Source of the DNA: a candidate division TA06 bacterium SM23_40
Lineage (GTDB): Bacteria > LJUI01 > SM1-40
DNA: 6,217 nt
NCBI GenBank assembly: GCA_001303705.1
Contig: LJUI01000145.1
Span: 1-6,217 of the forward strand
Direction: 5' to 3'
The position numbers and the translations under genes are program-made. Every line of letters starts with the position of its first letter. Position 1 is the first letter of the stretch. The notes below the pieces were generated by a model. The model searched no databases, was not told the origin of the DNA, and saw only the letters and a list, made by a program, of their open reading frames with translations. Below, piece after piece: positions 1-6,217 of the stretch.

Positions 1-577
1 GCGTATCCGTCGGCGTGTGAGAGGGGGTATATGTACGCGTCACTGTCGGTGTACGGGTGGGCGTGGGCGTCTTCAGCGGCGTCGGCGTCGCCTTCATCTG
101 CCGACCTGGCTGGTTGGCGATCACCGTTGCCATCTGGATCGTGTCCGACATCGCCCCTGGATCCTGAAGCGGCCAGATCACCCGCACCACCACCTGCCGG
201 GCCGTCCCCGCCGCTCCGATATCACTCACATAGCGCTCCACCTGGAACCGATCGAGAAACGGAGAATCGAGGTAGAAGTAGCTCGAATCGGGAAGATACC
301 CGGTGTTGTCGCCCGTCTGCGTGAACCCCACGATGTTGTTCAGGCCGGGATACCCGCCCTGCTTCACGCTCTCGATCACCTCCTGGGCGAGCTTGGTGGC
401 GACCTGGCGATCCCGCGTCACGCTCGTCGTCCGCAACCCGGTGGAGAAGAAGACGACCGTCCCCAAAATGATAAATGCCAGGATCACGAGCGCGACGATC
501 ACCTCGATCAGCGTGAACCCGGCAGATCTGTAGCGGCCCCGATGCAGCGGGCTGTACCCCCCGTACGCCTCCTGCAT
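1..577 (-). CDS. PilV/GspI-like prepilin with Thr/Pro-rich tail (3' end beyond window)
   Basis: 192 codons are visible and the frame is still open at the left edge. The start is the ATG at 577-575, chosen because AGGAG (588-584) lies 6 bases upstream and because it gives a proper prepilin leader. Residues 1-20 (MQEAYGGYSPLHRGRYRSAG) are a basic leader ending in Gly20; GFTLIEV follows, so prepilin peptidase should cut after Gly20, leaving Phe+1 and the conserved Glu+5 (Glu25). Residues 21-45 are the hydrophobic N-terminal helix. The stretch around 59-72 (VATKLAQEVIESVK) matches the helix continuation of PilV/GspI-type minor pilins, and a small beta-rich head follows to about residue 160. From residue 163 the protein becomes a Thr/Pro tail (TPTPLKTPTPTRTPT and onward), unusual for a minor pilin and suggesting a linker to a domain outside the window. 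The protein should sit in the inner membrane and be assembled into a pilus or pseudopilus. The prepilin assignment is firm; PilV/GspI rather than another minor class is inference. Confidence 0.9.
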   Translation of the reverse strand, partial: MQEAYGGYSPLHRGRYRSAGFTLIEVIVALVILAFIILGTVVFFSTGLRTTSVTRDRQVATKLAQEVIESVKQGGYPGLNNIVGFTQTGDNTGYLPDSSYFYLDSPFLDRFQVERYVSDIGAAGTARQVVVRVIWPLQDPGAMSDTIQMATVIANQPGRQMKATPTPLKTPTPTRTPTVTRTYTPSHTPTDT

Positions 578-1255: not shown

Positions 1256-2986
1256 CTAGGTCACCGGCAGTACCCGCCAGCTTCCCGGATAGAGATAGAC
1301 GATCCGCGGCAGGGCCGGCAGCTTGACCCGCGTGAGATTCTCGTCGTAGTTGTACGATCGGCGGCCGTACGCCCGGGACAGCTCAGGCGTCTCATACGAG
1401 GCAATGCCTCCGACGAGGGTGAACTTCCGATCCCACGAGGAGATCCACTCAGGCAGGTGGACGTGCTGCCCGCGGAAGACACCGTTCTCACTGACGATCT
1501 GTGCACTCATCACCAGCGTGTCAGGAGCCGCCGGAATACCCAGGTACTCATACCTTTGATCCGCGATGACGATATCGTCCGTGGCGAAGAGCCCGAGCCC
1601 ACAGGGCCGTTCTTTCGTCTCCGGCGGCCTCACTGGTGGCTCCGTGTTGTAGTCCACATCCGAATACTTGATATCGCCGTTGATCAGGATTTTGCCCTGC
1701 CAATCGGAAACAACATCAGTGCCGCTGCAGATCGAGAGCCTGCCGTCGACCATGATGTCTCCCACGACAGCCACTCCATCATCGATGAAGAGTACGCCGC
1801 CCTCTTCCGCGGTACTGGGGGGACGGTAGTTCTGGGGAACAGCCTGGTAGGCGTAGCGCTCGCTCAGGGGAGTGTGCAAGGTGTCAAGCGCCGTGAGCGT
1901 GATCGTGCTCTCGGCCCCCTCGCGGCGCACCCACCACTTCTGCCATGTACCGGAACCGACTTCGCGTTCGATCACTCTGAGCGTATCCTCGGGGTTGGGA
2001 CCGGTCGACTGTATGAAGCTCTGTGCCCAGAGAGCGGACTCAGACAGCTCCCCAAACCAGAGACCATAGGCGTGATTTTCGCTCCAGCGGTCAAACCGCT
2101 GCACCCCACCGCCATAGTAGCCGCTGTCCGGATCGCCGCCGGTCGCCTGCATGAACGGTCCCTCGCTGCTCAGGTCGATATAAGGCATGGGCAGGACTGC
2201 AGTGCGCATGAACGAAGGAGTGGCGGTCGACACGATCCGGCCGTCGCTGGGCCCGGTATACGGATAGATCGAACCGCCGAAACTCGGAACGTCCACAGAG
2301 CTGGCCGTGGCATTGAGACGAATGGTATCATTCTCGCCGGGAACGGGACTGTAGTTATTGACCGAGAGGAGGGCATTGGAGTGGATCTTGCCGTGCCAGA
2401 CTCCTCCATTGACCAGGGTCAGATCGCCACCGGTGTACAGCACGTAGTCGCTGGGAGAGACGGTGACGACGAGTGCGAACAGACGCCTCGCATAGTCCGG
2501 ATCGGGAGAACCGTCGCGCATCCGGATGTTCCCGGTCCTGTCGAGCTTGTATCCCGTGCAGACGATGCCGATCCGCTTCATCCCGTCAGCATCATAACCC
2601 AGCGGTATACCCTGGAGCACCTCCTGCGGGGACAGATTCTGGTCCAGAGAATCTACACCAGTATGGATATCGAGGACGTATGCCGCTACGTTTTGTCCCG
2701 TCTGTGGATCACCGAGGACGACCGGATCGGTGGGGTTGGCATAACCATCCCACTCTACGTCCTGGATGAGATGCCGGATCACATCCTGGAGCCCGGCATC
2801 CGCAGCCTCAAGCGCAACGTCCCTGCCCGTGGCCTGAGCCGTGCGCTGCAATTCGTAGGGAATATAGGCGAGGAATGTCGCGCCCAACAGGGCGACGAGC
2901 ATGGTGAGCATGAGAGCGATGACGAGGATGAATCCCCCTTCGGCTCGCTCCGGCGCTCCTTGGGTACCTCTGCGATCGATCCTCAT
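1256..2986 (-). CDS. PilX/GspK-like (DUF4900-like) large minor pilin, second paralog
   Basis: 576 residues, ATG at 2986-2984, with a strong AAGGAGG (3001-2995) 8 bases upstream; TAG stop at 1258-1256. Residues 1-18 form a charged leader ending in Glu-Gly-Gly; cleavage after Gly18 would leave FILVIAL. Residues 19-41 are the hydrophobic helix. Glu+5 is absent (Ile), as in GspK. ELQRTAQATGRDVALEAADAG (45-65) resembles the PilX/GspK region after the helix. Around 181-245, YVLYTGG...NGGVWHGKIHSN...FGG resembles DUF4900-type proteins. Residues 395-440 are glycine- and beta-rich, with the look of a beta-solenoid or stacked-strand fold. The end (ELSRAYGRRSYNYDENLTRVKLPALP, then PGSW) is also DUF4900-like. 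The protein should anchor in the inner membrane with a large periplasmic or surface domain. It is about two thirds identical by eye to the gene at 4016-5752. Cysteines are 143, 420 and 462. A pilin-like membrane protein is firm; the exact family is inference. Confidence 0.88.
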   Translation of the reverse strand: MRIDRRGTQGAPERAEGGFILVIALMLTMLVALLGATFLAYIPYELQRTAQATGRDVALEAADAGLQDVIRHLIQDVEWDGYANPTDPVVLGDPQTGQNVAAYVLDIHTGVDSLDQNLSPQEVLQGIPLGYDADGMKRIGIVCTGYKLDRTGNIRMRDGSPDPDYARRLFALVVTVSPSDYVLYTGGDLTLVNGGVWHGKIHSNALLSVNNYSPVPGENDTIRLNATASSVDVPSFGGSIYPYTGPSDGRIVSTATPSFMRTAVLPMPYIDLSSEGPFMQATGGDPDSGYYGGGVQRFDRWSENHAYGLWFGELSESALWAQSFIQSTGPNPEDTLRVIEREVGSGTWQKWWVRREGAESTITLTALDTLHTPLSERYAYQAVPQNYRPPSTAEEGGVLFIDDGVAVVGDIMVDGRLSICSGTDVVSDWQGKILINGDIKYSDVDYNTEPPVRPPETKERPCGLGLFATDDIVIADQRYEYLGIPAAPDTLVMSAQIVSENGVFRGQHVHLPEWISSWDRKFTLVGGIASYETPELSRAYGRRSYNYDENLTRVKLPALPRIVYLYPGSWRVLPVT

Positions 2987-3058
2987 AGTCTCTGCCTCCT
3001 TGGTTCCACTTTCTATGCCAGTTCGTCATTTCGCTACCATCCCTACTCATAAGCAAGA

Positions 3059-3067
3059 AGCATACCA
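3059..3067 (-). promoter_or_regulatory. Possible extended -10 promoter of the second paralog
   Basis: On the minus strand TGGTATGCT (3067-3059) fits an extended -10 element (TG, one base, then TATGCT, 4 of 6 matches). No convincing -35 box lies at the right distance. The position, about 75 bases upstream of the ATG and downstream of the preceding gene's terminator and the repeat spacer, is where a promoter is needed. Confidence 0.3.
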
Positions 3068-3198
3068 ATCAGGGCCAACAAACAGCCCCGAAAATCCCCT
3101 CTGAACGGCCCTGGAACGCAGGTCTGCACGACCCACGCCGCGCGCTCTCGTGTCGGTGCGACACTATGTTACAGTCGGCCTCCATTTCGGTACACCGG

Positions 3199-3430
3199 AT
3201 CGCACTGCCACACCACACCGGGTTTGCTCGCCCGACTGCATCGGCACACCCCGCTGCGGTACTACCGCAGACTGCAGTAGCACACAGGACTGCAGTAGCA
3301 CACGGGACTGTAGTAGCATACCGACGTGGGTCGACACACCGGAGTGCACTGAGCCACCGGGCCTGACTGGCAATCTCAGTGCGGCGGCACACCAGACAGC
3401 ACTGGCACGCCAGACTGCAGGCACCTCCTG
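3199..3430. repeat. Degenerate tandem array 1, unit about 18 bp
   Basis: The best units are consecutive: ACTGCAGTAGCACACAGG (3271-3288), ACTGCAGTAGCACACGGG (3289-3306) and ACTGTAGTAGCATACCG (3307-3323). More decayed units run out on both sides, for example 3235-3253, 3324-3342, 3343-3361, 3396-3413 and 3414-3430. Unit length drifts between 16 and 19 bases, so no reading frame is kept; this argues against a coding repeat. There are no unique spacers between units, so it is not a CRISPR array. One unit (3254-3270) is a perfect palindrome: CTGCGGTA, one base, TACCGCAG. Confidence 0.75.
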
Positions 3431-3564
3431 CAACGAGGGAAGACCGCTCTCGCGGCCTCCATCCCGAGCCCCACGACGCGTATTTCCCCCCCTGCCGAAC
3501 GAGAGTCTGGAGAGTGACAAATAATGGAAGAGATCTCGGCGGATCTCACACAGCCCGCGCAGCC
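3431..3564. other. Inter-array stretch without recognised features
   Basis: About 130 bases separate the two repeat arrays. A short plus-strand frame begins with ATG at 3523 and runs about 48 codons into array 2, but its translation is repeat-derived and resembles no protein. No promoter or terminator is visible. Confidence 0.4.
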
Positions 3565-3820
3565 GGTGCGCCGGAGCGAGGTGATCCGCCGGAACAGCGG
3601 CCATGCGGCGACGCAAAGGTCGTGCGCCGGCGCGGGAGTCATACGCCCATGCAGGGGTCATGGATTGGGGTAGGATCGTACGCCGGAACAGGGTAAGCCG
3701 CCGAACCAGGGTCATGCGCCGCAGCAGGTCTGGGCGCCGGAGCAGGGTCCGACGCTCGTGCAGAAGTCGGACGCCGGAACAGGATCGTGGGCTGGAGCAG
3801 CGTCACGCGCCGGAGCAAGG
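3565..3820. repeat. Degenerate tandem array 2, unit about 18 bp
   Basis: Fourteen back-to-back units of 17-19 bases can be laid out from 3565 to 3820. The clearest are TCGTACGCCGGAACAGGG (3676-3693), 3694-3711, 3712-3729, 3730-3747, 3767-3784, 3785-3802 and 3803-3820; the unit at 3748-3766 has one extra base. The core CGCCGGARCAGG is well kept, while the first five bases of each unit vary. Variation is not three-periodic and single-base length changes break any frame, so the array is non-coding. It shares a CRCCGGA core with array 1 when the units are rotated to match, suggesting common origin. Confidence 0.8.
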
Positions 3821-3879
3821 ACCCGGCGGGCAGTCCAACCAGAGGTAGGCCGCTCGTTGCAGGCCCCGATCACAAAAGA

Positions 3880-3906
3880 AAAGAGAGGTCGTGAAGACCT
3901 CTCCTT
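3880..3906 (-). terminator. Rho-independent terminator of the first large pilin-like gene
   Basis: GAGAGGTC (3883-3890) and GACCTCTC (3896-3903) form a perfect 8-bp stem with a 5-base loop, extended by two A-T pairs after one mismatch. On the minus strand the hairpin is followed by TTTTCTTTTG, a proper U tract. It lies about 110 bases after the stop at 4016. Arm sequence and position match the terminator after the paralogous gene (1120-1148). Confidence 0.78.
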
Positions 3907-4015
3907 CTCGTTGCTCATCGCCAAATCACGAAGACGGCTTGGTGGCTGTGGGCCTTATGTACCTGCTTCGCGAACGCCGGGCGTCGGCCGGAACCGGTGC
4001 TCCTCCATCGACGGA

Positions 4016-5752
4016 CTACGACATCGGCAGAATCCGCCAGCTCCCCGGATAGAGATAGACGATCCGCGGCAGGGCCGGCAGTTTCACCCGATTCAGATTC
4101 AAGTCGTAGTTGTAGAATCGGCGCCCATATGCGCGCGACAGCTCGGGTGTTCTGTACGAACAGATCGCTCCCACGAGCGTGAATTTTCGATCCGCTGCGG
4201 GGCAATTGACCGGCAAATCGTTGTACAGAGCGCGGAAGACGCCCTGCTCGGTGATGATCTGAGCACTGACCGTCAGGGTGTCGTCGGCGCAGGGGATGCC
4301 GAATTGCTGGAACTGCTTGTCGGCGATAAATATCCTGTCCGTGGCGAAGAGCCCCAGCCCGCACGGCCTCTCCTTCGTCTCCGGCGGCGTTGTGGGCGGA
4401 TCTGTGCTGTAGTCGACGTCCGAATACTTGATGTCGCCATCGATCAGGATGGAACCCTTCCAGTGCGAGGGAGCGTCGGTCCCGGAGACGATGGAGACGC
4501 GGCCGTCGACCATGACGTTACCCACTACTGCGGTTCCGTCGTGGACGAAGAGCACGCATCCCTCTTCCGCCGGATTGTCGGGATGCCAGTTCACCGGCAC
4601 CTGCCTGTAGCCATATGACTCGTCGAGGGGATTGTACACGCTGTCGATCGCGGTGACGCTGATGAAGCTGTTCTGACCGTGACCTTCACGCTGCACCCAC
4701 CACTTCTTCCACACTCCCGACCCGACCTCCCGCTCGATGACCCTGATCGTGTCCTCGGGATTGGGGCCCGTCGATTGTATGAAGCTCTGTGCGAAGAAGT
4801 CAGTATCGGAGACCTCACCGAACCAGAGCCCGTGGTCGGAGTTGGTGCTCCAACGGTCGAATCGCTCCACGTGGCCGTTGTAGTACCCGCTGTCCGGATC
4901 GCCGTGTGTCGCCTGCATGAACGGACCATCCGGGCTCAGATCGAGATAGGGCATCGGCAGCACCGTCGTGTTGATGAACGGAGGGCTGGCAGTCGATACG
5001 ATCCGGGGATCGTTCGGCCCGGTGTACGGGTAGTGGCTCCCGCCGAAATCGGGCGGCGTGGGAGAGCTGACCGGAGCATTGAGATAGATCGTATCGTTGA
5101 GTCCGGGGACGGTACTGTAATTGTTGATGTTGATCTGCTCATTTGCGTGGATCTTGCCGTTCCACGTCCCTCCATTGACGATCGTGAGCCACCCACCGGT
5201 GAACAGCACGTAGTCGCTCGGAGAGAGGGTAACGACGAGGGCGAACACGCGCCTGGCGTAGTTGGGATCGGGAGAGCCGCCTTTCATCCGGATGTTGCCC
5301 TCCTGCGTCAGCTTATATCCGGTGCTGATGACCCCGATCCGCTTCATCCCGGTCAGGTCGTATCCGAGCTGTATGCCCTGCAGGGTCTCCGGCGGTGAGA
5401 CGTTCCTGTCGTACTGATCAACCCCGGTATGGACGTCCAGGGTGAATGCCGAGATGATCTTCCCGGATTCCGGATCGGTGAGCACGACCGGATCGTCCGG
5501 GTTCTCGTACCCATCCCATCGCGCATCCTGGATGAGATTCTGAATCACATCCTGGAACCCGGCATCAGCGGCCTCGATGGCTACGTCCCGCCCGGTGGCC
5601 TCGTCCGTACGCTGAAGCTCGAACGGAACGTAGGCGAGGAACGCCGCGCCGAGTAGGGCGATGAGCATGGTGAGCATGAGGGCCACGACGAGGATGAATC
5701 CTCCTTCGCCCTGGTCCCGGGCTCGCTGCTTGAGAGTGAAACGCGTCTTCAT
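4016..5752 (-). CDS. PilX/GspK-like (DUF4900-like) large minor pilin, first paralog
   Basis: 578 residues, ATG at 5752-5750, with AGGAGG (5766-5761) 8 bases upstream; TAG stop at 4018-4016. The basic leader MKTRFTLKQRARDQGEGG should be cut after Gly18, leaving FILVVAL; Glu+5 is replaced by Val, as in GspK. The transmembrane helix is 19-41, followed by the EAADAGFQD region (60-68). The section at 181-245 (YVLFTGGWLTIVNGG, then GKIHANEQ, PDFGGSHYPY) and the C-terminus (AYGRRFYNYDLNLNRVKLPALP...PGSW) are DUF4900-like. Residues 400-450 (VVGNVMVDGRVSIVSG, GSILIDGDIKYSD) suggest stacked beta strands. Compared with the copy at 1256-2986 there is one 2-residue length difference, near 360. It has five cysteines (399, 464, 488, 517, 531), only Cys464 being shared. 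It follows the PilW/GspJ-like gene by 63 bases, probably in one transcript, and would join a minor-pilin complex in the inner membrane. Pilin-like nature is firm; exact role is inference. Confidence 0.88.
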   Translation of the reverse strand: MKTRFTLKQRARDQGEGGFILVVALMLTMLIALLGAAFLAYVPFELQRTDEATGRDVAIEAADAGFQDVIQNLIQDARWDGYENPDDPVVLTDPESGKIISAFTLDVHTGVDQYDRNVSPPETLQGIQLGYDLTGMKRIGVISTGYKLTQEGNIRMKGGSPDPNYARRVFALVVTLSPSDYVLFTGGWLTIVNGGTWNGKIHANEQININNYSTVPGLNDTIYLNAPVSSPTPPDFGGSHYPYTGPNDPRIVSTASPPFINTTVLPMPYLDLSPDGPFMQATHGDPDSGYYNGHVERFDRWSTNSDHGLWFGEVSDTDFFAQSFIQSTGPNPEDTIRVIEREVGSGVWKKWWVQREGHGQNSFISVTAIDSVYNPLDESYGYRQVPVNWHPDNPAEEGCVLFVHDGTAVVGNVMVDGRVSIVSGTDAPSHWKGSILIDGDIKYSDVDYSTDPPTTPPETKERPCGLGLFATDRIFIADKQFQQFGIPCADDTLTVSAQIITEQGVFRALYNDLPVNCPAADRKFTLVGAICSYRTPELSRAYGRRFYNYDLNLNRVKLPALPRIVYLYPGSWRILPMS

Positions 5753-5815: not shown

Positions 5816-6217
5816 TCAGTTTCGTATGGCTGCTCGGGTTATTACGTGCATCCGCCCTCCGATATCCTGGCTACCACCCATCCGCCGTTGACGCTTCTCT
5901 GATTGGGCCGTTACTTCGATGATCATTCCCGTCTCTGCCGGTGTCGTATACGGCGCCGTTCCCCCCTGAAACTCGGGAAGATCGAACTGAACCGCCACCA
6001 CGTGCTCCAATACCACTCGCCTGATGGTCCGAGTCCCCGAACGCAAACTGTCAACCTCGATCAGCTTGAAGTTGTCCGGATCCGTCCTGTCCACGTAGTA
6101 GGTCATCCGATGTATGTGGTCATCACTAACATACTGCGTCACATCGAGCCCCGGATCGAGCATATAGAACCGAAACGAATTCGATGAATCCGAATGCCAC
6201 GTGTCGCGAAGCGGATA
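5816..6217 (-). CDS. PilW/GspJ-like minor pilin, C-terminal part (5' end beyond window)
   Basis: 133 residues are visible, the frame being open through the right edge; the TGA stop is at 5818-5816. An in-frame ATG at 6163 exists but has no ribosome binding site, and the upstream codons (YPLRDTWHSDSSNSFRFY) read as continuous protein, so the true start is outside. The content suits the C-terminal head of PilW/GspJ-type minor pilins: MTYYVDRTDPDNFKLIEVD, a polar strand pair; then VVLEHVVAVQFDLPEF; then ETGMIIEVTAQSEKRQ, the strand common near the end of this group; and a terminal TRAAIRN. The transmembrane helix and cleavage site cannot be seen. Location directly before a PilX/GspK-like gene supports the reading, since these genes are usually neighbours. 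Assignment rests on pattern and context, not a catalytic motif; another minor pilin class is possible. Confidence 0.72.
   Translation of the reverse strand, partial: YPLRDTWHSDSSNSFRFYMLDPGLDVTQYVSDDHIHRMTYYVDRTDPDNFKLIEVDSLRSGTRTIRRVVLEHVVAVQFDLPEFQGGTAPYTTPAETGMIIEVTAQSEKRQRRMGGSQDIGGRMHVITRAAIRN

Follow-up and report, generated by a model that had tools for sequence, protein, structure and literature searches.

The gene-free spacer between the two paralogous genes of the analysed stretch of DNA (the window, 6217 bp, which is the whole contig) probably holds two independent degenerate minisatellites that grew by local duplication and then decayed, and that are examples of a class of arrays found throughout the genome. 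The draft genome has a size of 2.88 Mb in 189 contigs and is about 90% complete. All genes of the window are located on the - strand (Table 1), and the spacer at positions 2987-4015 holds both arrays, with about 45 bp between the end of array 2 and the upstream paralog's terminator, and array 1 ending about 200 bp from the next gene. The N-terminal part of paralog 1 shows a weak match to GspK (E 0.0014, well short of the family cut-off), and because of the hydrophobic start and the prepilin neighbour the paralogs could, as a guess, be minor pseudopilins. No clear homologue of these proteins of ~577 aa was found in relatives or among genome and viral contigs, the search giving one weak match over 59 residues. 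A search of plasmids gave no match. A hairpin terminator is present 3' of both paralogs, that of paralog 1 near 1120-1155, and the flanks of the paralogs align through it, while beyond the terminator no homology of the flanks was detected (best score 36, which is the shuffled level, 95% = 40).

Table 1. Features of the window and, in the last row, a dispersed repeat on other stretches of the same genome.
Feature	Position	Strand	Description
Prepilin-type protein	2..577	-	N_methyl, PilV/GspI-like; cut off by contig end
Paralog 1	1256..2986	-	576 aa, N-terminus like that of a pseudopilin (weak match to GspK), no Pfam family
Array 1	3189..3440		About 12-14 units of 16-19 bp, consensus GACTGCAGTGGCACACCG
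Separator of arrays	3441..3545		Non-repetitive, 105 bp; best self-match at shuffled mean, p 0.60
Array 2	3546..3835		15 units of 18-19 bp (3546-3820) and a remnant, consensus GGTCATGCGCCGGAGCAG
Intrinsic terminator of paralog 2 (upstream paralog)	3879..3907	-	Hairpin
Paralog 2	4016..5752	-	578 aa, 70% identical to paralog 1, no Pfam family
Protein, no family assigned	5816-6217	-	Truncated at contig end
Dispersed ~40-bp repeat	L044:14997-15067; L075:7384-7451 and 9729-9842; L046:7261-7287; L091:2618-2644; L019:2002-2028		

Tandem arrays of about 18 bp in the spacer between the paralogs had been described in an earlier note made from the window alone, and they were confirmed by Tandem Repeats Finder, which reports a period of 18 in both, and by shuffling. 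The best self-match of each array is found at lag 18, with 89 of 150 matches in array 1 (shuffled mean 58.1, maximum 71) and 83 of 150 in array 2 (shuffled mean 61.5, maximum 71), and in neither case did any of 1000 dinucleotide shuffles reach the observed number. Array 2 was cut into its 15 units by eye. The purest part of array 1 is located at 3270-3323, with 2.7 units in 3270-3318 that are 93% alike, and decay is greater on both flanks. The units of the window are strongly decayed, with 73-77% identity to their consensus. By self-match there is no repeat in positions 3836-4015, after array 2, or in 578-1255, the spacer after the other paralog, and positions 2987-3190 are borderline (p 0.02). 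The window has no match in Rfam, and the RNA folding of the two arrays is ordinary (z -1.1 and -1.0). Both arrays are minisatellites in the sense of head-to-tail units of ~10-100 bp that match above chance, and are known here from one genome. That they should be what is left of a mobile element or of a coding sequence rich in repeats is scarcely credible: a unit of 18 bp is divisible by three and the arrays are crossed by open frames, but the observed lengths of 16-19 bp disrupt the frame, a gene caller based on codon usage accepts no gene across the spacer, and the genome has no other copy, and the arrays are non-coding, as the earlier note had stated.

The same note had proposed that both arrays are one ancient satellite split into two subfamilies, and this is very unlikely. 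The arrays adjoin and are equal in unit length, their units show a CRCCGGA match upon rotation, and A exceeds T on the + strand in both (AT skew 0.27 in array 1 and 0.28 in array 2), but a shared word of this kind is within expectation for two GC-rich 18-mers over all rotations, the GC skew is of opposite sign (-0.11 in array 1 and +0.14 in array 2), and 105 bp of non-repeat DNA separates the arrays. The family question was tested in four ways, namely by wrap-around alignment of the consensus, scored against shuffled units and against shuffled sequence, by ranking of spacers, by sequence-only profiles built from array dimers (R1 from array 2 and R2 from array 1) and run on the window with filters off, and by comparing one consensus with the other. 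All comparisons of array with array gave background, and such tests are blind to very old common descent that has left no signal. The array 1 consensus aligned to array 2 scored 26 against a shuffled-unit mean of 27 (p 0.45; p 0.19 with shuffled sequence), and the array 2 consensus aligned to array 1 scored 16 against 21.6 (p 0.77 and 0.75, respectively), with p = 0.72 for the two consensus sequences compared directly. Neither profile detects the other array above background, R1 giving only E values of about 0.9 (on the opposite strand) and 8 on array 1, and R2 only 4-5 on array 2. When 254 spacer pieces were ranked by the array 2 unit, array 1 came 160th, and by the array 1 unit array 2 came 7th, with a score of 28 that is in the background range (the best unrelated spacer reached 36). 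At the level of sequence, arrays 1 and 2 are therefore without detectable relation.

The earlier note had also seen in array 2 a kept core of 12 bases with about five variable ones, as in an array of protein-binding sites. Identity of the columns to the consensus ranges from 0.50 to 0.93, and when mismatches were shuffled within units a spread as large was seen in 11% of trials (p = 0.11), so that the core did not hold up; the column test gives binding sites in array 2 no support, without excluding them. It is unlikely that array 2, and perhaps array 1, is a cluster of binding sites through which a regulator or a nucleoid protein controls the downstream pseudopilin-like gene. The 15 units are regularly spaced by 18-19 bp and located upstream of a gene start, some columns of array 2 have an identity of 0.86-0.93, and the relation between neighbouring units is flat (r 0.03), as expected if the units were held to one site, but the unevenness of the columns is not significant, a spacing of 18-19 bp does not keep the helical phase, the end of array 2 is about 560 bp from the start of the downstream gene, and many spacers hold similar arrays with other units. 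Furthermore, the search of the genome with a profile of array 2 that had been suggested gave array 2 alone in the 2.88 Mb, and a pattern search for the unit in the same genome gave no more hits than the reversed control. A function of the arrays is conceivable but has no positive support. Slow decay of a satellite that was formerly more uniform, which the earlier note had offered as the other option for array 2, is probably right. The mismatches of array 2 comprise 31 transitions and 23 transversions, and those of all arrays 391 and 397, where 1:2 would be expected at random, an excess of transitions that is as expected for copies decayed by mutation.

One further array with a period of 18 bp, L046:530-698 with the consensus GCAGGGTCGCCGCGCGGA, is similar to the unit of array 2 (score 84, reached by 5 of 1500 shuffled units), but it was picked as the highest-scoring of 254 spacer pieces and the likeness is therefore not significant and possibly due to chance.

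Arrays in other spacers could not be seen from the window, since the genome is needed to see them. In a sample of 60 contig stretches, comprising 746 kb of the same genome with 84% coding according to a codon-usage caller trained on the sample, 196 spacers of at least 180 bp were scanned for self-match. A self-match of 52% or more over 100 bp at a single lag was found in 33 of them, with 0.2 expected from shuffles, although a few of the 33 are due to a dispersed repeat of ~40 bp and a few gene-abutting arrays could be missed coding repeats. Depending on the threshold, 26-33 of the 196 spacers hold arrays, where 0-0.2 would be expected. Periods could be fitted for 24 arrays and range from 14 to 39 bp, with 19 of the 24 between 14 and 26 bp. 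The unit sequence differs at each locus; 9.8% of 276 pairs of loci are alike at p 0.05, slightly more than by chance, which shared dinucleotide composition may explain, and no 5- to 7-mer is commoner over the arrays than in random spacer pieces. Of 21 array spacers, 20 lie between co-directional genes, compared with 117 of 153 other spacers (p 0.05), which may be chance or may reflect removal of arrays from divergent spacers crowded by promoters. A literature search that covered few subscription journals gave no report of a class of this kind in this group.

Two other kinds of repeat were observed in the sample. The dispersed repeat of ~40 bp (GGGGACGT...GAAGGTTA) is found genome-wide, often paired and once inverted, unlike the locus-specific arrays. 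At L054:866-1094 there is a tandem repeat of 67 bp with 3.4 copies at 90%, where the unit itself consists of two diverged halves of ~34 bp, an array of arrays.

By RpoB the nearest of the genomes compared, all from outside its own phylum, are an Eisenbacteria MAG (61%), further MAGs and a Latescibacterota MAG. With a protocol common to all samples (at least 55% self-match at lags 12-45), arrays were found in 26 of 196 spacers of the own genome and in 1 of 103 in the nearest lineages (0/23 and 0/45 in the Eisenbacteria G041 and G046, 1/35 in other near lineages), and random bacteria gave 3 of 60 and rpoB regions 6 of 189, which makes 10 of 352 for all controls. The excess in the own genome is significant both against near relatives (Fisher p = 1.7e-4) and against all controls (6e-6), but its size is only rough, since the controls are small and mostly contig starts and the rpoB regions are conserved operons. 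Roughly, the rate of arrays in this genome is several times that of the sampled relatives.

Twenty arrays have five or more units, and in 17 of them likeness between units drops with distance along the array. Pooled over the 20, the neighbour effect has a Stouffer z of -5.2 against permuted unit order, which points to growth by local duplication. In the arrays of the window alone the effect is not significant (p 0.17 for array 1 and 0.57 for array 2), and their duplication mechanism is for this reason taken from the genome-wide class. A short piece of spacer DNA would have been duplicated locally, by replication slippage or unequal exchange and separately for each array, further local duplication would have led to some 12-16 units, and the copies would then have decayed by point mutation, with an excess of transitions, and by single-base indels. 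Such arrays would be neutral and born in place, and unusually frequent in this isolated lineage. Two observations stand against a purely neutral model, namely the co-directional bias, which neutrality does not predict, and the uneven column conservation in some arrays, which could be constraint, though the genealogy of the units yields the same. It is conceivable, but not likely, that a process of this lineage actively and repeatedly duplicates spacer pieces of 14-26 bp in place, that much of its longer spacers is made up of such locus-specific arrays, and that the arrays are possibly kept to insulate or space co-directional genes. Loss of mismatch repair was considered as a cause and rejected; mismatch repair acts on short loops, and MutS-type domains are present in the genome.

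Independent minisatellites at many loci suggest that spacers in this genome grow by local DNA duplication and later decay by mutation. If this is true genome-wide, it would point to a lineage-specific bias in duplication or repair that shapes the spacers, and the loci constitute a set on which the origin and decay of tandem repeats in bacteria could be measured.

Regular direct repeats are shared with CRISPR, which the earlier note had rightly set aside, but here the units abut and diverge, with neither intervening spacers nor a conserved repeat. Iterons and other arrays of binding sites likewise have direct repeats of ~18-22 bp with regular spacing, but the arrays described here lie beside no replication gene, show no significantly conserved core and have no copy of the unit elsewhere in the genome. 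Bacterial minisatellites or VNTR loci in spacers are known from the MIRU loci of Mycobacterium tuberculosis (PMC3635867). Like these, the present arrays lie in spacers and have tandem units of minisatellite size whose copy number would change by slippage. MIRUs have one unit family common to the loci, whereas here each locus has a separate unit, the units of the window are strongly decayed, and the arrays are known here from one genome. Single bacterial minisatellites are ordinary, and it is the number and the independence that stand out, with dozens of arrays in a single genome that are unrelated to one another.
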